From NCBI GenBank assembly GCA_026929865.2, contig CM049403.1:30859001-30923000 (forward strand): a DNA stretch of 64,000 nucleotides, in the 5' to 3' direction. This stretch comes from Hyperoplus lanceolatus (taxonomy: Eukaryota > Chordata > Actinopteri > Uranoscopiformes > Ammodytidae). The stretch's first letter is position 1; each line of letters starts with the position of its first letter. The notes under the pieces are model-generated. The model was given only the letters and a program-made list of their open reading frames with translations, did not search any database and was not told where the DNA came from. This document shows positions 39,535-64,000 of the stretch, in pieces. The translations under genes were made by a program, and so were the position numbers.

Positions 39535-40262
39535 GCTTTGGTTCGGACCTGCAGTTCAACAGAGGCAGGAGGCACTGGAACAAAGAAGTACATGTGAAAA
39601 GGTAATAACACATTTTAATTTAATCTATTTAGTCAGACATTATTTAATTAAGTTCTGTTCTTCTTTTTGTTAAAGAACAATAGTGATTATTTCTAACTGA
39701 ATTATATTTACAACTTAATTTAATAATTTTCATTTGATTGGAGACAATAGTGAGAAAAACATTCTGCACATTGCACTATGTATTATAGCTAAAATAGATT
39801 ATATTTCAAAAGCAATGTGTCAGCCTTACCTGACATGGTAAATATTTCAGTTTAACTGATATTATACCTCAGACACATAGGTGACGATTACTTATGTGAT
39901 ATTAACAAGTTTGTTCGCTTGACAGTTAAAAAGTTATATTTGTTCAAACAGATAAAAATTATTTTTTTTAAAAAGTAGAAAAAAAAGTAAATCAGATGAA
40001 ACAACAATAAAAAAAAAAAATAGACGCCACATGCAAGCCAGAATGTAAAAATGGGTTTTAGGAAGAGTTTGAAAAGAAGATACCGATTTGTCTCTCTTTA
40101 TTTTAAGGGTTGCACATGCATTTGCTATAAGAATCTTCAATAATTGTACAGGTGCAACCTGAGTGGGTTATGCACACTTATAGTGTTTTCTAGTTTGTTT
40201 TATTGAAGTTGAATTTAAGTTATTTTATGTGGTCAACAGGTTCTTATTTTGGGCTTTGGAGA

Positions 40263-43200
40263 ATGGCATATCTAATCATGTTGCCTGTTCTCTTTCTGGT
40301 GATGATAAGTAAGTATTTTTTAACTTTTATTTTGGTTGATAATAAATTGTATGTAAATTCACAAAAATATTTTCTCTATTGATGTTAGCATTCTCAAATG
40401 TTTGGTTTGCGTTTGTTTGTTCACAGGCAACGTGACTCCTCAGATGACTTCAGGTAGGCAAAGTGAACTTTGATTACCTCTTAGCTTTCATTCAGTGCGG
40501 TTACATGGCACAACTAGATTGGATTATCACATATATCGAACAAGACACTCGAACGGACCATGTCACTTGTCTGAGTATACATGGCCTTTCAGAAATCGGA
40601 TAAATGTCCGATGCATGGCTGTCTCCACTATGCTAGGTGGCGCTGTAGCCCTTTCAACCATGCTTTCAACAAGTGGTTTTAGAGCCACGTCCGCTTCTCT
40701 TCCGTCAATAACCCATGGTGTAGCCTATCACGTGCAGGCACACAAGCACAGAACGAGAAGTCCGATATGCGATATCCGATCCCTGTATACATGCAGAGAG
40801 AAAGCCGACAATGAACGAATTATCTAGGTGTTCTTATCCGACTTCTCTTGTCCGTTATTGTGCCGATTTGTGTCCGAAGTAGATCGGATAAAGGTGTTTA
40901 CATGCAGGTTAAAAGTCCTGTTGAGGTCTTGTTCGTTTAGTTATCCGATTATGAGTCTGCATGTAAACGAGTGTTTCATTTCAAATGTTTGAAATATATG
41001 CACAGTACATAGGAATTTCACATGTAACATCTAGATGTAGACAATGACTAAGTATAAAGACTAAAAAGCCACAACCTAAAGTCTTGTACATTCATGTTAG
41101 GAGTCTCCGAATTTCATCCAATCATGTTTTTGTATTTGTTTTTCACAGGTTTTCACTTCTCATTAAATAGTAAGAATGGGTAGTTTTGAAGCAAATACCA
41201 AGTCAAATTTAAATTTATCTGTCCCTTTAAAAGATTTGAAAAAACATGTAGCCTACTACATGGTGAAAATAACTAATTCATGTAATAGGCTAGTTGGTGA
41301 TGTTTAGAGAGCACAGCGCGAGTGGTATGGAGATGAGGAATATATAACATGCATGTGTTGCACATGCTATTACAAAAAGATAAGTGTGTACCTAGGATCA
41401 ACATTACGAAATATCTCGCTCGACTCACAATGAAAAAGAAAATTAATGACGAAAAAACTCGGTACTACTACACATACAAAAAAAAAACAACAACCCTGTG
41501 GCATTTCACAGATATCAAAGAAACAGATTTAATTGAACTCAGCTGAACCTCATCCAGAGCGGCTCCACCTGCTAAAGGCGTTGCCAAAGTCCGCGCGTGT
41601 GAGAAACCATGGCTGCAATACAACACATTCTCGCTGCAATACAACACCTTCTCGCTGCGAACCAACAGCCTCGCCGTGCGCGAAGCCAGACGGTTTACAT
41701 AAATGCATACGTGCGTCTGCACTTTTCCACACTGGACGTGCTATCAGACCGGGCTGTACAGGCAAAGTAGTACCGGCTGCCCCGTGTGGAGATCCAACGG
41801 CTGATCACTCTGGTGTCTCCACACATCCAGAGCAACCCGCTGCAATTTTGCCTTCAGCCCGGAGATGCAGCTCCTGGCTGCGCTGCGTTTTTAGGAACAT
41901 ATCAACCTCTTCTGAGGTCCAACAACCCCCAGCCCCTACCCCTTTACCACTAGTCACCAAGCACTGATCACTAAACCATAAACCCCACAACCACCACATC
42001 ACCCATATCACCTCTCAGGCCTGAAGGCTGAAATAAATAAACAGAACCAGCAGATGTAGGCTACATGTAACGTCCTGCACACTATGATTATTGCTGCAGT
42101 GTCCGGGTGCTTTCCAGGCAATTTGTAATGTATCTAAGTGTAGGTTAATGACGTGTGCGTATTGTGCGCCCTTTCAACAGCATTCCAGTGCCAGACTTTC
42201 AGGTAAAGCACCCGGACACTGCAGCAATACTCATAGTGTGCAGGGCGTTACATGTAGCCTACATCTGCTGGTTCTGTTTATTTATTTCAGCCTTCAGGCC
42301 TGAGAGTTGATATGGGTGATGTGGTGGTTGTGGGTTTATGGTTTAGTGATCAGTGATTGGTGACTGGTGGTAAAGGGGTAGGGACTGGGGGTTGTTGGAC
42401 CTCAGAAGAGGTTGATATGTTCTTAAAAACGCAGCGCAGCCAGAAGCTGCATCTCCGGGCTGAAGGCAAAATTGCATGTGTGTGGAGACACCAGAGTGAT
42501 CAGCCATTGGATCTCCGCACGGGGCAGCCGGTACTTTGCCTGGACGGCCCGGTCTGATAGCACGTCCAGTGGGGAGAAGTGCCGACGCAGGTATGCATTT
42601 ATGTAAACCGTCTGGCTTCGCGCACGGCGAGGCTGTTGGTTTGCAGCGATAACGTGTTGTATTGCAGCCATGGTTTCTCACACGCGCGGACTTTGGCAAC
42701 GCCTTTAGCAGGTGGAGCCGCTCTGGATGAGATTCAGCTGAGTTCAATTAAATCTGTTTCCTTGATATCTCTCAAATGCCACAGGGTTGTTGATGTTTTT
42801 TATGTGTAGTACTATAAACTCTTGTGTGTGGAAAACGTAAACGTGTAATTCATTAAAACATTTTTTTTCTCTACTATTAGTTTATGTTTATTGCGCCAGG
42901 TCCGCATTGAACATTGTTTTATTATTTCGAAAAGTGGAGGAAATAAATTTCCCTGACACGCCATGATCACTGACGATTTGGTCGCTAAGAAGGTTGAAAG
43001 AGTGGGTCAGCTCCATCGTACAGTTCCGTCTTAGTGAAAGTACTACTTTCGCTAAGAACGAATCTGGGAAACGCATTCTTCTTTCACAGCGTTCTTAAGA
43101 GCGCTCCAAAGAAGTACTTAGCCCAAAGAGGCTCTTAACAAATCTGGGAAACGTGGCCCTTATCTTTGCGCTCCTTCTTAGGCGAACCCTTCTTTCGACC

Positions 43201-46200
43201 CTTCTTTGGTCCCAAAGAACGATCGAATCTGGGAAACGCGGCCAATAACTGAGCATTGAGACTAAAGAACCACAACCTTAAGTCTTGTACATTGATGTTA
43301 GGAGTCTCCGATTTTCATCCAGTAATATTTGTGTTTGTTTTTTCACAAGTTTTCACTGCTTGTTTAATGGTGGTCTTGAACACTAGTTTTGTACCTAATA
43401 CCAAGTCCAATTTCATTTTATCTGACCCTTTTAAAAGGTTTGAAAAATATGCACGGTACATGGAAAATTCCAATGCTCTAACTACATGATGAAAATAACT
43501 CGCTAATAACTTTGAACCGACAGCCACAACCTGAAGTTTTGTTTATGAGTCATGTTATTACATTACACAATTTATATCCCTTAACAGTGTTCTGTGTGCA
43601 CAGTGCAAGGAGTCTGGATATGTGGTAGATATTACATTCATGTATCACATGTGCAAATACAGAAGCATAATTTTGCACATCAGGATCAAACATGAATTGT
43701 AAAAAATGTATGTTGGATGATCATTCTATTCTGTAATTTTTTTTCTTTTTTAAACTTTTGTTTAATGTTAGATTTTTTGTTCTTTCTAGGACCCCTCTAC
43801 CAAATGGCTAAAAACTTAGCTTTTGGCCCAACAGATGATGGAAGTTCTCCTCGAATTGAACTAAAACAGCCTTTCCTTTACTTTGGAGAAATATACCGTT
43901 ACATTTACGTATGTAATACTTTTTTTTTTAAACAACAAAATCCATATCTTTTTGAAGGTTTAGGAAATTCTGGTATGTTTTGTAGGGGAATCATTTCTTC
44001 AACCACAGATTTGTAGGTTATAATAGTACTGACTTAGTAGTAGTCTATGTATTTAAGTCTCGCATAGCCAGACCAAATTACAGCTAGTAGTATGGTCTTG
44101 ATCCAGACTAATATGTTTGTATTATACAAGGTAAAACTGGGCTGGCCTGTATTTATTTATTTAAACCAATCACAATCGTTTTGGGCTGCGCTGAGCCCAG
44201 GAAGCTGCAACGCGTCCTTTCAAAATAGTGCAATTTGATGCAGATCATGGACCCAAAACCATTAATGACACGCGTATGTGTGCAGCAACATTATGAGCTG
44301 GATACTATCAAACCGTATCAGACACACACGTGCACTTGCTGTTGTCTCCCGTTCTGAGCGGAGCATAAACGGTAGGCTACAGCGGGGAAGAGGAAGGGGA
44401 GGAGTTTGACAACGCTCCTGGCTCCATTTTCCGGGAGCGTTATACTATATCCGTTCAGCCAGACTAATGTATTTTATATGCTATATCTATAATATGGTTA
44501 TAAAAAAGTATGGCAATCAAAATGTCTATATTTTATAACATGTGTGTAAATTACTGAAGTTGATGACTTCTAATTCTTTATTAGTAAAAAAAAAATATTC
44601 ATTTGGTTTCAGATCAACAACAATGGACACTTGACCTTTGAAGAGGAATATGACGAACATGATCCTTTAAGGTTTCCATTAAATGGTTCCTTTGGCATAA
44701 TTGCTCCATTCTGGATAGATTTAGACACCAGGGATCGTGGTGCAGTGTACTCCGACCAATACACCAATGGAAGTGTTCTCCAACAAGCTACTGAAGACAT
44801 TAATGAGTATTTCCCATGGTTGAGCTTTACTGCCAGCTGGGTCATGGTAGTAACATGGAATGACGTGCCCTTCTATGAGGAATCAGATAGAGTAAGTGAA
44901 CTTAATCCTTCATCACACCCAAAAAATGGACACACTCAATGAAAAATATACACACACTTGTATGATGTGTATAGGTTTAATGCAGAACAAAAACACAATG
45001 TCCTAGAACTGTATTTTGTGTTACGAGTGTTAAAAATTGTTGTGTTGATCATAATCCGATTCATTATAGTCATTCATTCTGTGACGAAAAAGTGGCTCCT
45101 TAAGCAACACAGTGCATTCTCTGTACATAATGCATTTTATAGCAGGAAACATGCATTTTGTGTTTAAGGCGAGACACTGCAGGTTAATAGGGTAAAACAC
45201 TTTTAATTATAAATATCATCATGCATGAAACCTTTTCAGTTGCTTACTTACATTAAAACAAGTCTCTTTTGCGTTACAATTTTTTCAATAAACGTTTCAA
45301 CCAATATGAAAATTCGGCATCATCAGCTAATTATGTGAACATTGCATATCTTGAAAAAGTAAAAGTCTCAATGATCGATAAGCCTTTGAAATAGAGTTAA
45401 ATCTTTATTTCATTTTTACAACATATTAGTCTCCAAAATAGTCACAGAACAGATTTTGGAAACAGCCTTTTTTTCATTGTTTAAATACGTTTTTTTTTAA
45501 AGATGTAAATCTATCATAAATCACACAATTAACAAAATATGAACAGACAATTCTGTAACAACCTTCAGAACAGTGCTTAGAATGATTATGTAAAATTAAG
45601 TTGATGTTAGTGGATGAGATAATGTCCATTAAAGATGGTTGACCATTCCTAAAAAAACAATGTTTTGCCTGCCATGGCTCGCCTTATACTATAAAAGTAA
45701 AATGAGCGTAAAAGGAACATAAGAACATGAAATAATACAAAAACTGAGGCAGTGACAAAATGTTTCTTAGTTGCAGTATATACTGACCATCATAAAAGCA
45801 GTACATGTGTTAATGAATTAATAATTTTCCAGACCGCAACTTTCCAAGCTGTGTTGATCTCTGGAGACGAGGACTCGTTTCTGCTGATGAATTATGGGAG
45901 AATTGACTCAATACCTGATGATGTTCAGGTAAGAGCCCTTAAAATGATACGCAAAGTTCTACTAAAGATATTAAGTGGACATTTCTTACTTAAATCTGAA
46001 TGCAGTTGTGGAAAATGTATCATTCCTTTTTTAATGTAGGGGAGAGTGAGTGGAGTTGTGCCAGTGGGGAAGTAGTGCCACCCCTTGTTTCTAGAAAAGC
46101 ATAGAAGAATTGGAAATGTGACCACAAATTTAAGAAGAGCCATCCTTTGACTCATCCTGTAAAGAAGGGAGACACATGGAATAAGATATAAGCACATTTA

Positions 46201-49200
46201 AGCTCAAAACACTTTTTTTGCCTTTCAAAGTAACATTTCCATGATCAAGGTTTTTTGATCATTGTGCCTGAACAATTATAAACACGTTTGGAAACATTTG
46301 ACACATGTTTTAGTGCTTTAGTATGCTACACTTTGAGTCTATACAGTTAGCACGATGTCAGCCCTAAACTGCTGCATCATGCTAATTATTCAAAATTCTG
46401 GGGTTGGGGTGATTTGTGCCAAAGGGCCTGGGTGAGTTATAAGTAAGTAAGTAAGTAAAATGTATTTATAAAAGCACATTTTTAACAGTTCGCACTGTCC
46501 AAAGTGCTGTACATAGCGCATTCAGTAGGTAAACAATGAAGTTAAAATAACAATAACAAAAATAATAGACATAAAGCCCAGACATCCACATATAAACAAA
46601 GATAGTAGTGCAGAGGTAAGATAGTTAATGGAGGAAAAGCCAGGTGTACAGATGGGTTTTGAGCCTTGAAATAAAGGCAGAAATGGAGGGGGAATCACGT
46701 GTCAGGTGGCAATTGGTTCCACCAGCACGGAGCAGTGCAAAGTAAATTTCTGAGAGTTGTGCCAGTGGCATGGCTGTATACGCTGGTCACCAAAAAGAAA
46801 GTGATTTTCTACAGTAGCTCAGAAGAGACTGACATCTCCATTCCGCTTAACGACACCACTGATGAGAGTACAGATGCCCATAAAGATGATGATGGTGACT
46901 TTGTCATTGTGAGCTTTGCAGGTAAAACCACCTCGATCTGCTAAGCCTTGTTTAAGAAAATGGACCTTCAATCTTTGTAAAATATTTGCTTCATTTACTT
47001 TAAATCAGGGGTTCTCAAACTTTTGATAGCTGAGGGCCAATTTAGGAACCCAACATTGGACCGAGGTCCGACGAAGGAATACAATTGAAAAAACTTAAAT
47101 AATTTCAATGGCCAGCGTCTTTGCGTCTTTACCGTTTACATGTATTGGTCTGCATCCAATAATGTGTAATTAACACATTTTAATTAATAAATGAAGGGCT
47201 AGGTTTCATTTCAACATTGGAGGGGTCACATTGAAAGCGGGGGTCTGGGGGCATTCTGTATTGCATTCAAATATTTATTCTACTTTATTGTTCAAAACTT
47301 TCTGCACATTGAAAAATCACCTTTTGGAGTGTTTTTTTGTAGGACTCACTACTCATGATGCAGCAGCAGTGTTAACTATTATGACACTATACATTGGAAA
47401 TAAACAGGGTGGGCTATCAGCAGTCAACTAAGCAGATAGTTCCATGGCTATTAGCAGCTAGCTAACGTTAAGGTGAGAAAGTGCATCGTATTGGGCTTAA
47501 CAAGCTCACTATCTAACAACTTACATTGGGACCACTACACTGCCTGCTGCATTGCGGGAGGCTGACCAGCCATCTGCAACGAGAGGCAGAGGCCAGCCGA
47601 ACTTCGCAAGTTTAAGATGGTACGGTCCACTGTAGGGGTGTTATTATTAATAATTGGGAAATGAATATAAACAATTAGGAGGGATATTTAAGTGTTTCGA
47701 CCTCTGTACTGTTTTTACTGTTACGGGGGACGCATCCCCTCCGTGCGTTTCAATTACATTTTTATTTTTTATTTTGATAATTCATAATTCAATGCGGGCC
47801 GCCAGATATGTTTCGGCAGGCCGCCATTGGCCCGCGGGCCGCACTTTGAGAACCGCTGCTTTAAATAAACCTTAAATAAGTAATTGTCTAATGGATTTGT
47901 CTTGCATTTCAGTTTATGAGATATATATCAATCGCACAATTTACCCTATGGTATTCTTTTCAAAGGCACAACTTACACCACACTGGGGGCAAGTTGTGCC
48001 ACAAGTCAACTTTTTTTTCCAAAAGCTTTATTTCTTAAACAGTTTATTTCAGGTCCAAAGTTATTGTTCCCAGGGATGCACCACACCCTGAAATATACAT
48101 ACATATTTCAGTTGGATACATTACTGTCAACGCCTCACTCTAAAGTCACTTTGACTAAAAAGTGGCACAGCTCCCCTCACTCTCCTCTATGTGTCATGTA
48201 TATCTAGGCTGGATTTGACACAGTCAACTCCACTCACCACGTCATCCTCCCTGGATCATTTGTCTTTGATACACCGACTAACACCACAAGTTTCCACCTG
48301 AGCAGCAATGTTAATGAAACTGGTCGCTGGGCTTTCAAGACAGGAAAAGGCTGCTCTTTCAATGGTAAGACCAGCATTGGACGTGTTAAGTAATGCTATG
48401 TAACTTCATTTAAACGGAGACAATGTACAAAATAAACATTAACCTTGTTTATGTCAAGGAGAGATACCGGGTTTAAGCAAACTGCTATTTTCCACCTGTA
48501 GTCGGTGGGCAGGTCAGGAGAATAAATACTACAAAACTAAAAAACAAGATATATCATAAAAAGATGGCAAAACTTAAAAATTCAAATTGTTTCAATGAAC
48601 ATTGAAGTGAATGCCTTTTATCTCTGACCTGTCATACAATTACATTTTGTCATCACTGACAACTGCTTTCCTGTTATCATGTTGTTTTTCTGCAAATCTT
48701 CGCCATCCTTTCTGTCTGTTCCAACTTAACATTAATTCCTGTAATGTCATATTTTCTCTGCACATTACATTTCTACCCATTTACGATTTTATTTCAATAT
48801 TTATTAATCACAGCTTATTCTCGTTTAATCTCCATGCATATTTTGTGTTTAATTTTCCATTTTTGCCCCATTCAGAATCACCGAACCTTTTCAGGTAAGG
48901 TACAATATTATTTTCTTGGGGGGCTTATTCTGCCCCTCAATCATGATGTCACAGGGTTTTTAATTGCTATAGACTCCAATTCTACCGTATATCTAATAAT
49001 TGTATTTATTTATTATGACTGAATTGCAAAACAGTGATGTCAATGTCAGTTTTTCATGATTATGTTGAAAGTTCCCATGCCAGATTTCAAAACAATTGTG
49101 TGTAAATGAAGTCAGACAAAATGTTCAATGTTTAACATATTTTCTAGATGCCCAGATGACTGTCCCCGCCTAGAGGAATACTCTCAGCTCTGTAGCATCA

Positions 49201-52200
49201 TCAACAACAGCAGCGGCCCATTCGCAGCCTGTCACCAGCAGTCTGACCCCCAGCCATTTTTCAACTCCTGTGTCTACGATCTCTGCCGCCTCACTTCAGC
49301 CAATGGCACGCTGTGTTCTGCTGTCTCAGCCTATGAAAGAACCTGCTCTGTTTCAGAGTTGAGCATCCCAGAGTGGCGCTTGGCTTCTCAATGTGGTATG
49401 TTTGCATTGATCTAATGGTAGGGGAGAACAGGGTTATATGTCAAACGGGTTGGTTGTCACATTCGTTATATCTAGGCACCAGAAGGCGCTGTCTTGAAAT
49501 TTTGGTTTGGAAATGTCCAGAATTGGGATCAGAGGTCACCTACATAGTCCTCTTTGGAGTAAGACAGCTACATTTGAGCTGAGAGGACGTTTTGCGTTTT
49601 TCATGTCAAATTGAAAATATTTAACTCCTCAGTATTTTTCTTCTAGGCTTTTACACAATGGGTTTATAACAAAACACTTGTTACCCTTAAACACTGTGAA
49701 GGGAAAGCTATAGTTTAGATTGTTGTTAGCTAGCTAACTAGTCGTTGGATGTTATCCAAAGGCTGCAGCCAGGAAAGGAACCCAAAAACTAACGACAATG
49801 TCAAGCAGTATACTCACTGACACGAAAAAAAGGGCAACACAATCAAAACGACCCAGTGCATCCCAATCTAGACCAGCTAACAAGGCTACTGCACCCCAGT
49901 GCACTCCACCCCAGCTGGGGAAGAAGAAACAGAAGAGAAAGAGACAGGAGGATGAATCTTCATCAGATGAAGAGGATAGTTTTTGTTTGGTTTGTATGGA
50001 AACGTTCTACAAAAGCCATTCTCGGGAGGTATGGGAGATGTGTTGGATGTGCAACAAGTAGGCACACAAGCTCTGCTTAGTTGGAGTGAGCAGACCCGAA
50101 ATTTGCCATTGCTGTAACTCAGATAGTGAATGTGTGTAGCCTAGGTGAGTAGGCTATTATTGTTAGACCTATTTATTTTGTTCTTTATGTTGTTACATGG
50201 GTGGTCTTAATATGGGTTTCCTGTTCGTCTCCCTTGCTCATTTTGTGTTAAGATACATTAAAGCTGGGGTATATGATTTCTGATTGGTCAAAGTTATCAT
50301 GAGTTCACACTTTGACCAATCAGAGCGAAGCTCCGATTCTCTGTTCTTATTGGCTGCTGGGACTGTCCATTCACTTTGGCACGACTTTGTTGGGTGTAGA
50401 GCGTGTCAGGGTGGGACCATAGGGGAGAGACCAAAGAGAACAAGTGGAGCGGTTGAGGTATTTTGATTCAAATCTCTATCCCAACTGCCATTTTCTCCCC
50501 AAATCCTCCACCCCAGCTTTAAGTGATGTATGCCCATTTGTCAGTTTGACAATGCAATGCAACTTACAAATTTAGTTCTGCCTTCTTTTTAAGATTTTTC
50601 CCATTAAGATAACATTGTGACAAACAACCCCATAGTGTGTGACAACCGACCCCTTGATGGGGTCTTTGACGGTCAATTACTTTTTCATTACAATAAGTTG
50701 GAAAGTGAGGGATACACATTTCAAGCCAACACCTTAAGCTTCAATTTTTGTAGGAATTACTATTGAAAGATGATTTGGTGATGAGCAATTCTCACTAGAG
50801 CAAAAAGTGTGCCAACTAACCCTGTTCTCCCCTACATACAAATGAATATGAAAATAGATCTTGAGGTAATTAAGGATTCCAATTGTCCATTTTATGGTAG
50901 AAAAATATCTTCTGTTAATTTTCCTTTATCTCTGTTATGGATATTAATGTTGTGTGTATGTATATATATAATATATATTATATTGCCATAAATTGTGAAT
51001 CTTCATACAAGTAACCTGTCTGTTAAGATGTTCTGACCTTAGTCTTGTGTAAGATAAAGTAAGGTTGTTTAACTGAGATAGTAGGTACTGAAGACTAAGA
51101 TTGCGTCTAAGTATGTTTGTTATGGCTCACTATGTTAACTCTGATAAACTCTATTACGTGTGCAAATGCTTGTGTGTTCATGTAACAGATACAGTTTACT
51201 TTATCTTCTGAAGAATGACTGCCATTCTTCAGTCAATTCTACAGTCCCCTTGATGATTGTGTCTTGACTCTTGCTGGCAAGTGATAAAAGATCTTAATGA
51301 TTGTACTTGAACATTGTGTCAACTGGTATTTCATTACCAACTCTCATCTGAACTAGAGAAGCTGATTTGTAGTTCCACGACATTTGTCTTACCCTTTCTC
51401 CACTATTCCCATAACTGAGTCAGAACCCTGTAAGGAGCTGTACTGCACAGAGTTTGAGCGTTGCGGTGAGAAGGACGGTGTTTACGACTGCTTATGTGAT
51501 GAGAACCATCAACGGCCAGACAATGAGACCTTCGGTGAGTGCAGCTTCTCCTAAAACCCTGCTTTTGTTTTTCAGATTACTTGCAGGTGCGTTCCGGGAA
51601 AAATATAATTTCTAATCCATAGCAATGTCAGCCAATGTACATGGGTATTGTAGTAATGTGATTGACCAGACATGATTCCTCAGAAATTATGTTTAAATAA
51701 CTTAAACTGATTTTAAGTAACCTAGGGACCACAATGGAAAATAAGCCTTCGGGCTTTTTTGTGTTTTTATCCTTGGCTTTTTATGTATTTTAATGTAACA
51801 GAGTGCTGTTCTTGTTTTTATATACAGTATGAAATGGTCGAATAAAGTAAATCAATCAATCAACCTTTCACTTCACAACTCTATTGTCTTTGGGTTTGTC
51901 ACTACAAGCAACATCTTCCAGACATCGACAAGTGCACCTTTAACCAGGAGATAAGCTTTGTAAAAACTAAATAAAGTTTTACTTCTATTTCACTTTCATA
52001 GAGTCGACCCTGACTTGTGCCGGAAGTTCAGCCAATATATCTGTGTCACGCTGCCAGCTGTTTGAAGAAGGCTTTCACTCTAGCGCCCTCCACCTCAAAA
52101 ATGAGTCCTACAAGGGACAACTCCAGGACGGATGACTGATTTTCCACTTTAACAATGATGACCAACTGTGTGGGACAGTTCTCAGGGTACATTTCATTAT

Positions 52201-53891
52201 GTTTATCAACTCTGACTGAATGGGATTTCAAATTTTGATGTTCTTTATAAAAAATAAAACAACAATAATCATCTTATTTCATTCTGCATTTTCATTTCAA
52301 GAGCAACGGAACCCATTTCATCTATGAGAACTCCATCCATGGTAACGTGGATCCCAATGAAGCTCCAATCAGCCGCCAAAGGCACATACATCTGCCTTTC
52401 CAATGTGCATACCCTCTGAACCAGTCCCTGGATTTCTCTGTGGGCATAAACCCTGTAGAGAGGTGAAAATACTGTCCTCTCTATTTTATTTGATCTATTT
52501 CTCAAATTAGAGGTTACTAACTAAGTCATCAACATATGCTTTTTTATGTATAGTGCCCTCTGTCAACAGTGATATATCATGGTGTATGCAATGTATGTAA
52601 TGGTAGTCGGTTTTCAATATTTAAATCCCTTACAAGGAACTTTAAGATTAAATAAGTTAGTCTAATTTTTCTACAGATGTTTATAAATGACCTAACTTAA
52701 CCATCATCTGAAAGTTCATCGTAGACAATTGAAGTATTCCAATAACAGTATATTTACCAGTGCTAGATCTGCACATCAGTTTGTGCATACTTTTTCTATG
52801 GCATTGGGGCTCCATATTAACAGGGACAATAATATCATAATAATATTAATCACTAACAGACATACCCTTCAAACCAAACAAAACCACCCTGTTCTAACGG
52901 GGGAAATGTGAATGCATCAAATATTCTAGGCGCTTTGTATATATCATGTTGTATTACTGTAATTGCATCCACTATTTTTAACTGTAAAGTATTTATTAAT
53001 GAATAACTCTTAATCTTTAAAATGACCAGAAACCTGTCAGCTCATTATTCTTAATGTGTGGTCACAGTATTTGTGTTATGTTTTTTGTAGCTTTGTGACC
53101 AAAACACTTCCATCCGGCGATGCAAACTATCGTTTGAGGATGACACCCTACAAGGATTCTGGCTTCATCAAACCCCTTTTCAATGACAATAACACACTGA
53201 AGGAAAAGGAAATCTCCAAGCCAGTGTTTGTGGAGGTGCTGACTGAAGATCTTGATGCAAGTCAGATGTCCATCTTCCTGGACTCTTGTTGGGCCACACC
53301 GGTCAACATCGCCAACAACTCTGTTCGCTGGGATCTCATTATTAAAGGGTAACTGAGCTATTGAAGCTTCACCTCGTCTTCACATAATGTCTTGTTGATT
53401 ATCAAAGTTTGAAAAACGGGGCTCTCTACTTGCTCCACGTATCCTGTCTTACAAACTAACGCGGTAGTACAGTCTAATAACATTGTAACCTTGTCTTCCA
53501 GCTGTCCTAATACAGCGGATGGTTCCGTGGAGATTCTTAAGAATGGCGTCTCCCTTGCAGCCCGATTCTCCTTCAAGATGTTCACCTTCATCGACTCTCC
53601 GTCCATCTACCTGCACTGCAGGGTGCATCTGTGTCTTGGGAACTGCTCCGCTGTAAGTACTACTGTGTTTTTGTGTTTGTAGAGAGATATGATAGATTTA
53701 CAACAACAGATGCATTAGCAGAAGCTTCTAATGTTGTTTTCCTGCAGAGCTGCTCCGGCATGCGACGTCGGAGGGAACTTTATGGTTCCAAAAAGAGATT
53801 TCAGAGGCAAGCAATGTACCACGACACTACAGACATCTCAGTCGGACCACTTGTCTTGACGGGATTGGGCAAAGCTAGAGCACGAAGATAA
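40263..53891 (+). CDS. Secreted NIDO-C8-EGF-ZP protein (alpha-tectorin-like), with in-frame TGA
   Basis: Resembles extracellular-matrix/mucosal ZP proteins such as alpha-tectorin. Exons: 40263-40308, 40427-40453, 43790-43908, 44613-44891, 45833-45928, 48208-48364, 48876-48894, 49148-49395, 51424-51534, 52002-52186, 52302-52462, 53091-53348, 53502-53652, 53748-53891. All are GT-AG and in phase; total 667 codons. Domains: signal peptide (MAYLIMLPVLFLVMI), NIDO about 65-240 ('APFWIDLDTRDRGAVYSDQY', 'ETGRWAFKTG'), C8-like cysteines about 249-330, EGF-like 331-367 ('ERCGEKDGVYDCLC'), ZP about 370-620 ('CQLFEEGF', 'QLCGTVL', 'DSCWATP'), furin-type RRRR at 625-628, hydrophobic patch ISVGPLVL at 649-656. 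No membrane anchor. Exon 10 has TGA at 52133-52135 (codon 412), while everything downstream stays intact. The gene may be a recent null allele, a sequence error or a young pseudogene. Unlike alpha-tectorin, no VWD domain precedes C8. Confidence 0.9.
40490..40975. mobile_element. Probable TIR MITE in intron 2
   Basis: Flanks are 'tgcggttacatggcacaact' and, reversed, 'cactcgtttacatgcagact'; the interior is rich in 'atccgat'/'atcggat'. Exact ends not fixed. Confidence 0.5.
41040..41275. repeat. Intronic duplication, copy 1
   Basis: Matches 43250-43503 in order: 'aagtcttgtacatt', 'atgttaggagtctccga', 'ttttcacttctcattaa' against 'ttttcactgcttgttta', 'tacatggtgaaaataact' against 'tacatgatgaaaataact'. 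Confidence 0.85.
41475..42805. mobile_element. Palindrome made of PIF-Harbinger transposase fragments
   Basis: Arms of about 660 bp mirror each other around about 42145: outer 'caacaaccctgtggcattt', inner 'tgtaggctacatgtaacg'. Each arm holds a Harbinger-like transposase N-terminal segment, clearest on minus at 42671-42423 ('SDRAVQAKYRLPRAEIQWLI', 'FSPEMQLLAALRF'); the left arm has the same text with a TAG. No catalytic domain remains. Confidence 0.82.
42880..43244. mobile_element. Harbinger-like element end
   Basis: 'cgaatctgggaaacgcggcc' at 43224-43243 and internal copies 'gaatctgggaaacgc' (43061) and 'aaatctgggaaacgtggcc' (43140) are typical of the terminal and subterminal repeats of fish PIF/Harbinger elements. 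A matching opposite terminus was not found. Confidence 0.5.
43250..43503. repeat. Intronic duplication, copy 2
   Basis: Direct copy of 41040-41275; the Harbinger palindrome and element end lie between them. Confidence 0.85.
44056..44467. mobile_element. hAT-like MITE in intron 3
   Basis: Flanked by TGTATTTA (44048-44055) and TGTATTTT (44468-44475). Ends AGTCTCGCATAGCCAGACC and, reversed, TAGTCTGGCTGAACG. Same family as 34774-35872. Confidence 0.8.
46039..48187. mobile_element. pogo/Tc1-like element in intron 5
   Basis: TA at 46037-46038 and 48188-48189. Ends GGGGAGAGTGAGTGGAGTTG and, reversed, GAGGAGAGTGAGGGGAGCTG. A plus-strand remnant at about 46760-46920 ('VAWLYTLVTKKKVIFY', 'KDDDGDFVIVSFAGK') looks like a transposase C-terminus. 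A hAT element (47006-47858) and a dispersed repeat (about 46440-46700) lie inside. Confidence 0.75.
47006..47858. mobile_element. hAT element nested in intron 5
   Basis: Ends CAGGGGTTCTCAAACTTT and, reversed, CAGCGGTTCTCAAAGTGC, with perfect 8-bp duplication CTTTAAAT (46998-47005, 47859-47866). Non-coding. Confidence 0.9.
49421..50832. mobile_element. pogo/Tc1-like element in intron 8
   Basis: TA at 49419-49420 and 50833-50834. Ends GGGGAGAACAGGGTTATATG and, reversed, GGGGAGAACAGGGTTAGTTG. The plus-strand frame 49798-50061 ends in 'SSDEEDSFCLVCMETF' and 'WEMCWMCNK', a cysteine-rich tail like that of fish pogo/jerky-type transposases. A TTAA MITE is nested at 50262-50518. Confidence 0.78.
50262..50518. 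mobile_element. TTAA-type MITE nested in intron 8 element
   Basis: TTAA at 50258-50261 and 50519-50522; ends AGCTGGGGTATATGATTTC and, reversed, AGCTGGGGTGGAGGATTTG. Confidence 0.85.
52133..52135 (+). other. In-frame TGA in tectorin-like exon 10
   Basis: Context GAC GGA TGA CTG ATT TTC. Phases of exons 9, 10 and 11 leave no doubt about the frame. ZP proteins of this type commonly carry Gly-Arg followed by hydrophobic residues at this strand, so CGA to TGA is the simplest origin. Confidence 0.8.
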
Positions 53892-54218
53892 CTCGGCATG
53901 GTAAGGGAGCAGTACTTCAGGCCAGTTGACCTCCTTGGGGATCCTGCTAGTCAGTTTGCTGACTGCCACGACTCTGACCTGAAGAGATCCAAGATCAGCA
54001 CACACAAGTACACAGAGGGATAAATGCATTTAACACAACAACATATTAATCAGCCAGCAGTAGCTAAATCCCTTTGCATTGATTTGGGAATGGGCATTTA
54101 TTATTAAGAATGGTTATAATCTATATTGTGATTCAATTAAAAGGTCTAATGAGTTAATGATAACAGAATATTTCAAACTATATGATATAAATTCATCTTG
54201 ATTTGAATTCCACTCTTA

Positions 54219-54735
54219 GAGGCCTCCTCTACAGTTGTGGCAGTTGTCTTTATAACATTAGAGGGCAGCATATAATCAGATACACATTTGTCTCTGATTT
54301 CATGAACATTTTGTGTGCTGCTCAACTTTCTCAATTCAGTACCGTTTTTATCGGTTGTATCCCAGGATTTCTGATGTGATACTATATTATCCTTAAATCA
54401 ATATTTTCTATTTGATGAATATGAAAATGATAAATGAACTATAGAAAATATATACTCTGATTCTTTGGGTGATTCTTGTCAATGAAACTTATAAAAAGTT
54501 ACTGTGTATAATGCAGTTTAAAATTTGAAATAAAGTGTGGAATGTGGATCATATTTGTTGCCAAGGATCTTTTGTACACAATCCCAGTCCTTTCCAATCA
54601 ATTATGTGTAATGGTATTAACCATTTTCTTTTGTACAAAGTCGATTGTTCTGTGGAATAATTATCAAATCATCAATACAGGCACAGTTTAATGAAAATGA
54701 TCGTTACAAAGAACACTTAAATCAAATACAATATG
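54219..54735 (+). repeat. 3' UTR/flank duplication, original copy
   Basis: Words 'gaggcctcctctacagttgt', 'attagagggcagcat', 'gtggaatgtgg' and 'tacaaagaac' recur in the same order at 55296-57690. Confidence 0.85.
54529..54534 (+). terminator. Poly(A) signal of the tectorin-like gene
   Basis: AATAAA 638 bases after the stop; no earlier AATAAA was seen after the stop. The surrounding 3' UTR is duplicated further right. Confidence 0.6.
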
Positions 54736-55295
54736 TTAATAAGTTATATCTCTGCACCTCATCCCAAAAATTTTAAAATACTTTTTTTTATTCCTTCATT
54801 AAGAAAATACAATTACATTGACTGCTACTTACTGCAGAGTTAAAATATGTGTTGGGAATTCACACCTTTAAGTTTTCCTTGAATTTGTATTAAATGCAAT
54901 AAGAGGTCATATAGTGTGTAAAGCCTAACAACCGGCTCTACATTAGCCTGTTTGGTGCGGTGTGGGCGAACTCTTGTTGTACGCGTGATGTGGTGCCAAT
55001 AATAAATGTCTGATAACTCTTTCTTGTTTGAGTGCTGTGACCCATTTATTTCATCAATTGGTCGAGAGCAAACAAATGAGGCGACACGCTGCCACGGTAC
55101 AAACGGTTTGCTTTTCCCCAAAACACACACACGTGCCCGGTGATTAGCTATATGCCTTTAGTTGAGCCCAAAGCTCCACCCAGTGGTCACACACACAACT
55201 ACATATCACAAAATAAAACAAACAAAAGAGTGGCATAATGGCTCCAACATAGTGTTTATCCTCTATTTCCAGCTATCAAGAAAGTAATAAAAGGT

Positions 55296-57690
55296 AGAGG
55301 CCTCCTCTACAGTTGTGGCAGTTTTTCATTATAACATTAGAGGGCAGCATTTAATCAAATACACATCTGGCTATGATGTCATCAGGGGTTGACACTAAGG
55401 TTTCAAAAGCATAGGGCAAGTACAGGTAATGTTGTACTTGCCCGAATGTCGTGTTCACTTGCCCAAAAAAAAAATAAAAAATTTAAACAGTGATATATGC
55501 TTATTAAAATATACATTTTAGCGAACCTTATCTCTTAATGCAAACACTGCTTACTTGTCTCATCCTGACCACATACAACCAACAACAATTCATATAAGCC
55601 TAGATATCATGACATCACACATATAGCCAAGCGCTTGGTCCTGCTGCAGCATCGTGAAAGAGCCTCTTTTTGCCATGCAACTGGCCTGGTTTTGGGGGTC
55701 TCAGAAAACTCAGTCTAGCTCAGAGTCAAGCTGAATGTTAGCTTCCACACACATGTGTTCAGAAAAAAAAATACTTATTTTACTTATGTAAAACGGTCAC
55801 ATTGTGCCAAAAAGTGATCGTCTGCCATAAAATGATTAAAGTCCACCATGTTAAAGCTATTGCCCGGTTATACTATAAGTAAGGAGGGGCATCATTAATT
55901 TCTTTTCATATTGATACCATTATAAAGACTCCACAAACCAAATCTTTATTGATACTTTTGTATTATTTTGTTAAAAGAGAACTGGTATTATTGCTATACT
56001 TGCTTATAAGATGAGCAGAGCTAAGGATAGGACTTTAAACAGGTCATAATTCCATATTTAGGCCTACTCATTATTTTATATTGCTGGGAAAACAAGTTTT
56101 TCACCCAAACTGTATTATTCAAGCTTCTCGCGAAAAAGTAAAACATTTTTTTTCTTGATATTACATTTGAACACATCATGATGCCATTTTATTGACCTTT
56201 GCCTAATAATCATTTTACTGAGCCGACCTGAACACATCACATTTGAACTTTTGCGATTTTTTTTTAAGCTAACTAGTTATTATCCTGCAGATTTTAATAT
56301 GGATTTAGGGACTTGCTAAACAGTCTCTCGTTTGTTGATCACCGCTGTTTTGAATGAATGAAGAGACGGTGCCGAGCCCGTCTGCAGCGGCTCAGCGGAC
56401 GGGTTTTTTTTTTTTTTTTTTTGGAGACGGAGAAGCAGGTTGAAGGAGTTTCTTCAACCTTGTCGAAGGTACAACACTATAGTTGAAGATGACCCGACTC
56501 TACTCGATATTTAAAATGACTTCATGTGCCCGACTGGACTCCATAGCGGTATCGACAAGCTCAAACGTTGTTGATTTCTGGGTTTTGAATATAGCGGAAC
56601 CAGGTCCGTATAGCCTAATAGAGCCGGTTTTCGGAACGTAGACAGCGAAACTGCGCGCACACAGGCTGTTTTGTGTGTGTGAGAGATAGAGAGCGAGAGA
56701 AAGAGAGCGTGATGCTGCTGGCTGCCGCGCGCAGCTGCTCAATTGCAAATATAGCATATCTGTTTTGTGTGGGTTAGCGGGAATTTTCTTTTTTTGCGGA
56801 CTCTAAAACACATGAATAAATAGCCTAGACTACTGACAACCCCTCTAATATTCACTTGCCCGTCCGGGAAACCAAAAAGCAATCTCAACTTGCCCGAACA
56901 TAATTTTTACTTGCCCCGGGCAAGCGGGCAACCGTTAGTGTCAATGGCAAAATCTACCAATGCTTAAAAAAAACTATGCTTTGGCCTGTAGTGTCTCACC
57001 TTAAATCAATCATTTGTATTGATTAATTATGAACATGAAAATTATAAATTAAGTATATTTGATACATCCTGTGATTCTTTGAGTGATTCTTATCAATGCA
57101 ACCTTCTCATATAAAAAGTTACCGTTTACAAAAATGTTTAAAAGTGTGAATAAAGTATGGAATGTGGAATGTTGATCATATTTGTGTAGAAAATGTTTAA
57201 CACATTTCTATTGTACAATGTAGAGGGTTCTATGGAAGAATCTGCAACTTGTCAATAAAGGCAGTGTAGTGACGTTTCTCAGATTTTCCTGGTTCCAATA
57301 AACATCATTGGTGACTGCAGACTAGAATCTAACAATGTTTGAGTCCAACAAATATAAATGTCCAGAGGTTTGTTGAGTTTGCAAAAAGGTCTTGTGGTTT
57401 ATTTTGTACAAAAAGTAAAGAAAACTGACTTATAATACTTAAAACAAACAAAGAAGCAGAATGTGGGCTTAGCCATTGTAGAAAAAACATTTTGCTGTGT
57501 AATCAGCCACTCCTGGCATTCTGTTCATCTCCTATGATATGCACACTGGCACTTAAGACCTGTAGAGGTCGCCATAATCAAGCATAGCACACACAAATAA
57601 TATTAAACAGAATATGGCTCCTACAGGCACAGTATAATGTAAATTACTTTTACAAAGAACGCTTAAATCAAGTGCAAGATTCAATTTGAT
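55296..57690 (+). pseudogene. Second copy of the tectorin-like gene 3' region
   Basis: Pieces at 55296-55382, 56990-57260 and 57620-57690 match 54219-54300, 54390-54660 and 54680-54740 in order. A transposon (55383-56947) and a second insertion (about 57280-57620) interrupt it. No ZP or other coding exon is found beside it, so only the 3' part was duplicated or kept. Confidence 0.75.
55383..56947. mobile_element. TIR DNA element (probable hAT)
   Basis: Left CAGGGGTTGACACTAAGGTT, right reversed GCCATTGACACTAACGGTTG. Subterminal 'acttgcccg' words occur at both ends. No clear coding region; a poly-T run lies at 56406-56422. Confidence 0.7.
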
Positions 57691-58159
57691 TTAAAAAAAA
57701 ATTATTGTCTCTCACATAGTGACAGAAAATTGCCTTCAGTTTGAGGCCCACAAAATAAATACAACACTGCTTTCCCTGAAACCTCATAATGAATTATCTC
57801 CATATATAGTCTACTGGAGAACAGTACACTATATTTGGTTTATTAATGTACACAATTACATACAAGTCACACACATAACAATGATCATCATAAGACATGC
57901 CTAAGATTAGCGTCTAAGCCATTGTTTCAAAGCCTGTTTAAAACTGCCTATGTTTCTTAAGGCCCTGTTACCGGGCAGAACGAGAAACTCCAGGATCAAA
58001 TCTCTGACCTTCACTCACAGAACGCCAAAGTGTCATGTACCAGGTAACCTGTTCCAAAGTGTAGTTCTAGCATAAAGAAAACTCTGGGGGGTACAAAATC
58101 TGTTGGAGCTACCCCTAGTCTAGTGGAATGCCTGTGAACTTCACTTAAAATAATATTAC
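57691..58159. other. No gene seen
   Basis: Sequence without recognisable domain. A 61-codon frame at 57719-57904 has no support. Confidence 0.35.
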
Positions 58160-59680: not shown

Positions 59681-61010
59681 GTTGGTGTATGTAACATTCA
59701 GCATGCTTTGCTGTACTACGGGCATCTTGTCGCATAGCGGGGAAAACAACATGGCTGTCGCTCGGAATATTTTCCAGAGGATCTCAGGGCCATGGACCAA
59801 TACGAAATGGGGGGGTGGGGTTTTCATAGACTACTGCACGGTGGAAGTTTCTGGTTACTAATGTGGGGGGGAAGCATGGGGAAGTGGCTGTGCCGACTGT
59901 GACGTTACAGTCGGCGAGAATTCTGACTGGAGTATATTGGAGAGGTTTTCAGAAAGGAGGAGGGTGAGGAAAGGAGAGATTTTTTTTTTTTAGGCACACC
60001 GTGGACCCATAGTTATGTTCCAACACATTTAAAAAGTGTGTTTTGCATAATATGGGACCTTTAAAACAATATTTAAATCATTTCTGAAATATTTAGCCAT
60101 CCAAACTTTTTTATAATGTCCAGTAGAGGCGGAACAGATTATTTAGACTGCGAGAAGAGCAATATTATATCATCAGCAAACAGGGATATGTGGTGATCCA
60201 TCTTACCAAGGTGTACGGGGGCCTTTTGTTTTTTTTCTGATGCCAATAGCCAGGGGCTATATGCATAGGGCAAACAGCAATGGGCTCAGGGGGCAGCCCT
60301 GCTGGATACCACAATGTAAACTGAAAGGGGGAGATCTTTTCGAGTTGGTAAGAACGGATGCAGTTGGATCGGCATAGAGCATCTCTACTAACATTTTTGC
60401 CCAGGCCGAACTCTTCAATGGTTAACAGCATGTACCTCAACTCCACCTGAACAAACGCTTTATGTGCATCAAGCGCAAGGACTGTAGATTTTGACTCGTT
60501 CCGTTTGCTGTATACAATATTCAATAGTCTATGTACATAAAAAAAAGAAAATCTTCTATGGATAAAACCCACCTGGTCTGGGTGAATGATGGTTGAAATG
60601 TGGTTATTTAGTCTTATAGCTTAAATGTTTGTTAACACCTTTACGTCGCTACAGAGAAGGGATATGGGCCGAAATGATGACGGGTCAGTTTCGTCTTTCT
60701 TCTTTTTCAAAATTAAGGAAATATTTGCAATGTATAATGACTTTGGTAGCTTTTTGTTTTTAATTGACTCTTTAAGCATTCTCAACAATAGAGGGGCCTC
60801 GTCATTTGCATATGCCTTATATAACTCTATACCAAGGCCATCAGGGCCAGCTGTTTTTCCTTTTGGGATTTCTTTCATTTGAAACTAGTTTGGGAAGTGG
60901 CAGAGAATGCAAAAATGTAAGGATATCCTCGAGCAAGATTTTGGGAGCAGTACAAATCTTCATAAAACTTCCTGAAAGAGTAATATATTAACAGGGTCTG
61001 TGACTAATAA

Positions 61011-62738: not shown

Positions 62739-63420
62739 TAAAGAACTTGAATTAGGTTTAATCTTGGGAATATCCTACTGGCTTGTGCACCTTTCAGCTG
62801 ATGCGGGAGCAATCGTCCAGGTTTCTCTCCCAATTCAAACTGCTTGTGCTTAATTTTCAGAAGTAAAGTACTAACTTGTTTGGAAAGAATTATATTCATG
62901 TTTCAATTTAACAACATACTTCAGTTCAGGTTAGGAGGGAGCCTCTCTATACTGTTTTTCAAGTGAGCTGTAATTCTGAAAGCCTATGTCTCCTTTGCTT
63001 TTTTGTGCGACTTCATATGATATCACAAATCCTCTTAGTACTACTTTGAAAGCATCCCACAGAGTTGAATCTGAAACGTCGCCTGTGTCATTGAAAGCCA
63101 CATACTCCTTAATAAAACCTGAAAATATTTTGCAGAATACTTCATCATTAAGTTAGTAAGAATTAAATTGCCACTTGTAATGGGCCTTTTCCATTCAACA
63201 TCGATGCCAATAGTGACAGGACTATGATCTGATATTAATATATTATGGTATGGTATTTTGATGCAGGGAATGCTGATGTCTGTTCTTGTATAGGTGCCAT
63301 GAACTTGCGAGAAGAATGAGTATTCATCCTCGGTGGGACGCTGAATTCTCCAAATATCGACAAGGTTTAACGATTTCATCAGATTATTCAGTACAACTGT
63401 GGAGTCCAAAGGGTTAACTG

Positions 63421-64000
63421 GGGCGAGAGGACGATCTATTCATAAATGTATCCAATGCTGGGCTTACACTAGAGGACTTTGAAAAGATCAAAGACTGAAA
63501 CCCTCTCAGGTCTAAAGAGAATCAACTCACACCTGAAGACAATAAATCATTAGTTCTCTGAGTTTTCAGTCACAGACTGATATTTTGCAAAGACAGGGGT
63601 CTCATATTGCAAGACTACAACTGGATTCCTTTCGAGATTAATATTATTTCCAATCCTACTACCGGGGAATAAAAGTGATTTCAGTCAAATAAAAAGTTTT
63701 ATTTTAGCAGGTAAAATGGACTGAGTGGACTCTAATCTTAAATAAATATAAACAACTATATGCCGTCATCACGTAGGCTAAATGTCATGCCCGATCACGT
63801 TAAAAACAGCAAACGCGATTGTGATTATTTAATTAAAAAAAGTTAATTCAATACTCCGAGCGGGGGACATCCTGTAGTTATTTGACCAGTTTTATTTGCT
63901 TATCCCCCAATAACTCTAACTCTAAATGTGATGCTAGGCTGCGCAGTTGTCAGCCTGGTTCTTCAGCCGAGGCTGCTAGATAAAAGTGTCCGAAAAAGGT
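63421..64000. other. No gene seen
   Basis: No domain, splice pair or element boundary is recognised to the right edge. Confidence 0.35.

Follow-up and report, generated by a model that had tools for sequence, protein, structure and literature searches.

Alpha-tectorin (TECTA) of Atlantic salmon is described as a protein with NIDO, VWD, C8, TIL and ZP domains (PMC2386828). Omcins form a tandem cluster of EGF IV-ZP genes in teleosts, varied in length and related to uromodulin and GP2; omc5 is predicted to be GPI-anchored, and zebrafish omc5 mutants are sensitive to bacteria (PMC11415648). Loss and pseudogenisation of ZP genes are well known (PMC13361971). Among the literature matches listed we found no description of the NIDO-C8-EGF-ZP cluster reported here; the nearest was the omcin paper, and a term search of its accessible text returned neither "nido" nor "tectorin" nor "pseudogene" (PMC11415648).

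The window analysed here, a stretch of 64,000 nucleotides from Hyperoplus lanceolatus (C9:30859001-30923000), contains a gene with multiple exons at 40263-53891 (+ strand); coordinates below are window positions on that strand unless stated otherwise. The gene model has 15 exons and 14 introns, all GT...AG and with matching phases, and its 674 codons (including the last stop) contain a sole internal stop, at codon 419. Splice sites and phases placed exons 1-5 at 40263-40308, 40427-40453, 41149-41169, 43790-43908 and 44613-44891, exons 6-10 at 45833-45928, 48208-48364, 48876-48894, 49148-49395 and 51424-51534, and exons 11-15 at 52002-52186, 52302-52462, 53091-53348, 53502-53652 and 53748-53891. 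The initial annotation was right about the matching phases; its 14 exons and stop at codon 412 agree with the present model once the 21-nt microexon at 41149-41169 (seven codons) is omitted.

A NIDO domain is encoded by exons 4-7 (43790-48364, residues 69-242; Pfam PF06119, E 1.8e-42) and a C8 domain by exon 9 (49148-49395; PF08742, E 7.3e-19). Exon 10 (51424-51534) encodes a segment directly N-terminal to the ZP module in which five cysteines are kept in seven of the seven copies compared below; Pfam gave no EGF match for this exon at E<=0.001, and we call it EGF-like because of its position and its likeness to EGF IV of uromodulin. Exon 11 (52002-52186) encodes the first part of ZP-N, as placed by Pfam (PF23344, E 3e-14) and by the seven-copy alignment, and exons 12-14 (52302-53652) encode the remaining ZP-N (PF23344 to residue 474) together with ZP-C (residues 501-629; PF00100, E 9.3e-31). 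With the internal stop written as X, NIDO, C8, ZP-N and ZP-C each exceed the Pfam cut-off, the ZP domains scoring 53.6 bits (cut-off 24.7) for PF23344 and 107.1 bits (24.6) for PF00100. Downstream of the stop, exon 15 encodes RRRR (53763-53774), found in exon 15 of all six C9 copies, and then a conserved hydrophobic stretch; we take the former to be a furin-type site and the latter to be EHP-like. An AATAAA poly(A) signal stands at 54529-54534, so that, as had been claimed, both the furin site and the poly(A) signal are preserved. The gene is a teleost NIDO-C8-EGF-ZP gene and its protein is of a secreted, filament-forming type.

We searched the assembly (806.7 Mb, 527 contigs) with a DNA query of 301 bases spanning exon 11 and the greater part of its intron. 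The seven matches were the window itself, five others on C9 and one on C17, placing six gene copies within about 93 kb of one chromosome and one on another contig. Besides the window, the comparison drew on the 100 kb that follow it and on a 30-kb piece of C17. In coordinates counted from the window start, copy B68 lies on the + strand of C9 at 67.7-83.8k and copies C90, D101, E111 and F128 follow on the - strand, up to 133.5k; copy G17 is on C17. C90, D101 and E111 have a signal exon, an EGF-like exon and ZP exons and gave no NIDO or C8 match; F128 gave no C8 match, and in G17 four C8-like exons separate NIDO from ZP. The mapped paralogue exons repeat the borders and phases of the model, all comparisons referring to these exons and the paralogue microexons being placed in part, and length differences are multiples of three (G17 exon 15 was not aligned). 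In F128 the acceptor of exon 10 is lost, and an AG nine bases upstream would preserve the frame. Exons 10-14 are free of internal stops and frameshifts in six of six paralogues, G17 exon 15 being excluded. The cluster also holds a broken partial copy, consisting of exon 14-15 pieces in both orientations (L011:476-1468, or 94476-95468 from the window start); the exon 14-15 fragments near window-start coordinate 95,000 were excluded from the alignments.

The window gene resembles alpha-tectorin in having NIDO on the N-terminal side, C8, ZP-N and ZP-C, and differs from it in having one C8 and an EGF-like exon before the ZP module and in giving no Pfam match to VWD or TIL at E<=0.001. NIDO, C8 and ZP are thus all present in the window, but the frame is broken in ZP-N, and the GPI-anchor tail of alpha-tectorin is missing since a TAA closes the frame before the hydrophobic stretch (tail type judged by eye). 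The relative on C17 has a longer, tectorin-like layout, its four C8-like exons bringing it close to Atlantic salmon TECTA as that protein is described (PMC2386828). Among proteins of solved structure, uromodulin and GP2 come closest in sequence. As in these proteins, the EGF-like segment of the window gene adjoins the ZP module and a cleavage site comes after it, and C90, D101 and E111 resemble a shortened GP2, with signal, EGF-like and ZP exons. In contrast, the window gene has NIDO and C8 where uromodulin and GP2 have D8C/D10C, and it lacks both the tail and the third ZP-N cysteine. With the omcins, compared by their published description, the locus shares the arrangement of a teleost tandem cluster of EGF-ZP genes, whereas Omcin5 carries D10C domains (PMC11415648).

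The in-frame TGA reported by the initial annotation at 52133-52135 was located by the gene model in exon 11 (52002-52186), at codon 419, where it interrupts the reading frame through the ZP module of the window copy. At this site the codon is CGA in five of the six paralogues (B68, D101, E111, F128 and G17) and CAA in C90; the TGA is private to the window copy. The proposal that a CGA (Arg) codon changed to TGA at a CpG is supported because the paralogues, which provided the whole of this comparison, have CGA or CAA. A single methylated CpG within CGA is expected to give two transitions, one to TGA and the other to CAA, depending on the strand. A second CGA codon, two before the end of the frame, is CGA in the window, B68, D101 and F128, TGA in E111 and CAA in C90 (G17 could not be aligned there). 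Human uromodulin was also tried as a guide to the ancestral codon; its aligned residue is Trp, which was uninformative, and the paralogues decided the matter. Between the TGA and the last exon junction lie 621 coding nt. A stop well upstream of the last junction leads to nonsense-mediated decay by the usual rule, and nonsense-mediated decay is therefore predicted here. That the product loses the ZP polymerisation module follows, as annotated, if the stop is obeyed.

The expectation that the stop is the sole lesion of an intact gene did not survive alignment with the paralogues. Eight codons upstream of the TGA, codon 411 is TAC (Tyr, 52109-52111) in place of the third of four ZP-N cysteines; the codon is TGC in six of six paralogues, the aligned residue of human uromodulin is likewise Cys, and the Tyr is private to the window copy among the seven. 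The four-cysteine ZP-N set is thus incomplete in the window copy, and with this cysteine missing the gene is not otherwise intact; in addition, the terminal TAA shuts off the hydrophobic tail, an anchor-type tail that was probably lost earlier. Across exons 10-14, 15 alignment columns have Cys in at least six of seven copies, and 104 of their 105 cells are Cys, the sole loss being the window Tyr; the ZP cysteines downstream of the stop are, as had been claimed, all present in the seven-copy codon alignment. The second and third ZP-N cysteines pair with each other. The ZP-N disulfide described as invariant is that between the first and the fourth (PMC7737619). ZP modules gain and lose disulfides over evolution, the evidence coming mainly from ZP-C (PMC7456536), and the Tyr on its own need therefore not be fatal.

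The model ends with a TAA at 53889-53891 that is also found in C90, D101 and E111. B68 and F128 have GAA at this site, and their frame continues to SASGQLTS(V/M)VILL(V/L)SLLTATTLT and then a stop; G17 has a similar end (SASGQWIST, the remainder read by eye from the DNA) behind a putative splice. Judged by eye, the hydrophobic tail of B68, F128 and apparently G17 looks like a GPI-anchor-type signal. Besides the TAA, one extra base farther on is common to the window, C90, D101 and E111. We infer that the TAA is a shared stop gain and that the tail was lost rather than gained, because the divergent F128 and probably G17 retain it; the tail of the window copy was then probably gone before its private lesions arose. 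C90, D101 and E111 are tailless and unbroken in exons 10-14, and thus a copy could lose its tail and still be functional.

The codon analysis was carried out on exons 10-14 of the seven copies, leaving out exons 1-9 and 15. Across the 21 pairs dN/dS ranged from 0.58 to 1.19 (simple counting, stop codon excluded), and the ratio of exon to intron difference was at least 0.8 in 12 of 21 pairs (0.054 and 0.064 between the window and E111; 0.196 and 0.184 between E111 and F128) and 0.4 at its lowest (B68 and C90, 0.081 and 0.203), all of these being ratios that exchange between copies distorts. Given that frames and cysteines are kept, these ratios are consistent with weak constraint at the majority of residues as well as with diversifying selection. 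The C9 cluster together with the C17 copy displays fast protein change within a cysteine-constrained frame. In trees of separate segments E111 was nearest to the window over exon 11 plus its intron (support 0.91) and again over exons 14-15 (0.99), and D101 was nearest over exon 13 plus its intron (0.82); for exon 10 plus its intron no nearest copy stood out (0.19). A nearest copy that differs by segment is the pattern that gene conversion would give.

Within exons 10-14 the window copy has five private changes (one synonymous, three missense and one nonsense), the fewest of the seven copies, and it departs at 2 of the 137 residues that are invariant in the other six, also the fewest. A comparison of residues in exons 4-7, covering four copies, gave 6 odd-one-out residues in the window, 3 in F128, 26 in B68 and 23 in G17. 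These low counts speak against decay. Faster evolution of the window copy was considered as proof of decay and rejected, its private changes in exons 10-14 being the fewest. The case for decay rests on the kind of change and not on the number. Since private changes are few and exons 1-10 retain an open frame and intact splice sites, any decay must be recent.

Taken together, we think it probable that the window gene is a recently disabled and decaying member of a tandem cluster that evolves by birth and death. As in duplicated (non-processed) pseudogenes, its introns are kept, it has relatives with open frames, and its disabling changes are private. The course of events may have begun with a stop gain, common to the window copy and three neighbours, that would have removed the membrane-anchor-type tail; the shared difference is observed, and its direction is suggested by the copies that keep the tail. 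The window copy alone would then have acquired, in either order, the Cys to Tyr change in ZP-N and the CpG change of the Arg codon to TGA, both observed to be private among seven copies. The TGA would probably trigger nonsense-mediated decay of the transcript, and any protein made would be expected to end inside ZP-N, unable to polymerise. Neighbours with unbroken ZP frames could make such a loss tolerable. The evidence comes from one assembly, in which the window copy was compared throughout with paralogues, among which sequence appears to be exchanged.

A base-call or assembly error at the TGA, with a ZP frame that is truly open, would agree with a single substitution among otherwise open exons and with the small number of private changes. 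We regard it as unlikely: the change is a CpG transition of a kind also found at other CGA codons of the family, and 23 bases away the window copy has another private change that is non-synonymous and replaces a cysteine invariant in the other copies. The seven assembly matches include no apparent copy from a second haplotype, the nearest other match being 93% identical. The shared tail loss moreover remains regardless of the base at 52133; with the ZP-N cysteine gone and the tail probably lost earlier, an error at that position alone would not restore a normal gene. A distinct matter is whether the TGA coexists with functional versions as a segregating null allele, which is a special case of a decaying duplicate and does not exclude it. 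This is a possibility of some weight, though we do not favour it. The lesions are private, private changes are few, and one assembly fits a fixed as well as a segregating state; against this, the added Cys to Tyr change somewhat lowers the chance of a functional sister allele, unless both lesions lie on one haplotype.

Ways of making a full protein in spite of the stop fare worse. TGA followed by C is a leaky stop context, and the frame downstream is open to its end, as would be needed for readthrough or decoding as selenocysteine. Either is highly improbable, the ZP-N cysteine being gone anyway. For selenocysteine, three weak Rfam matches (E up to 5) were found within 40000-58000, none of them a SECIS, and the paralogues have Arg or Gln at the site and not Cys; the selenoprotein reading was rejected on these two grounds. 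That splicing removes the stop is scarcely credible, and an examination of the exon phases and of the GT sites of exon 11 found no support for it. Exon 11 is 185 nt long and runs from phase 1 to phase 0, while exons 12-15 begin in phases 0, 2, 2 and 0, so that none joins exon 10 in frame; the suggestion that relatives might share the TGA and skip the exon fails likewise among the paralogues, on which this check was run, as none of six shares it. Seven GT sites precede the TGA within exon 11 and only the one at 52043 would join exon 12 in frame; its context as a donor is poor by eye (tct|GTGTCA), and its use would leave a single one of the four ZP-N cysteine positions. Finally, the cluster might have split a parent protein, with C90, D101 and E111 as its EGF-ZP half and the window gene as a soluble NIDO-C8-EGF half. 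We hold this to be very doubtful; if it were true, the window half could act with or compete against the ZP halves of its neighbours at a mucosal or egg surface.

The finding at the window gene, which we read as a recently disabled duplicate, is an ordinary case of decay, and it is the surrounding cluster that merits a look. As a worked example, the locus illustrates how an apparent lone stop, once aligned with paralogues from the same genome, turns out to adjoin a lost structural cysteine and an earlier tail loss. With its fast change, apparent exchange, tail loss and microexon array, the cluster is a fair system in which to follow the gain and loss of parts in extracellular filament proteins of fish.

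The microexon array lies in B68, between exons 9 and 10 (L008:6711-10000 and L009:1-7890). By a strict pattern, this stretch of about 10 kb contains eleven 27-nt microexon-like units with AG/GT borders and phase 1-1, all encoding the same protein sequence, (A)TVAPQTTT, and possibly amounting to a repeat-coded, threonine-rich stalk. BLAST with window exon 2 and its flanks found 20 places in the same stretch, and window exon 2 itself resembles the B68 unit in diverged form. In the window, a second stretch resembling the 21-nt exon 3 and its flanks (82% identity) lies at 43328-43371; by eye its acceptor is shifted, its unit is 20 long and it looks decayed. Intron 3 contains a long open frame on each strand (41533-41967 on the + strand and 42343-42747 on the - strand); their translations are similar, and they look like an inverted pair of pieces from a mobile element. 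Further open frames on the - strand, at 60165-60884 and 63041-63439, resemble by eye pieces of a LINE-type reverse transcriptase and endonuclease.
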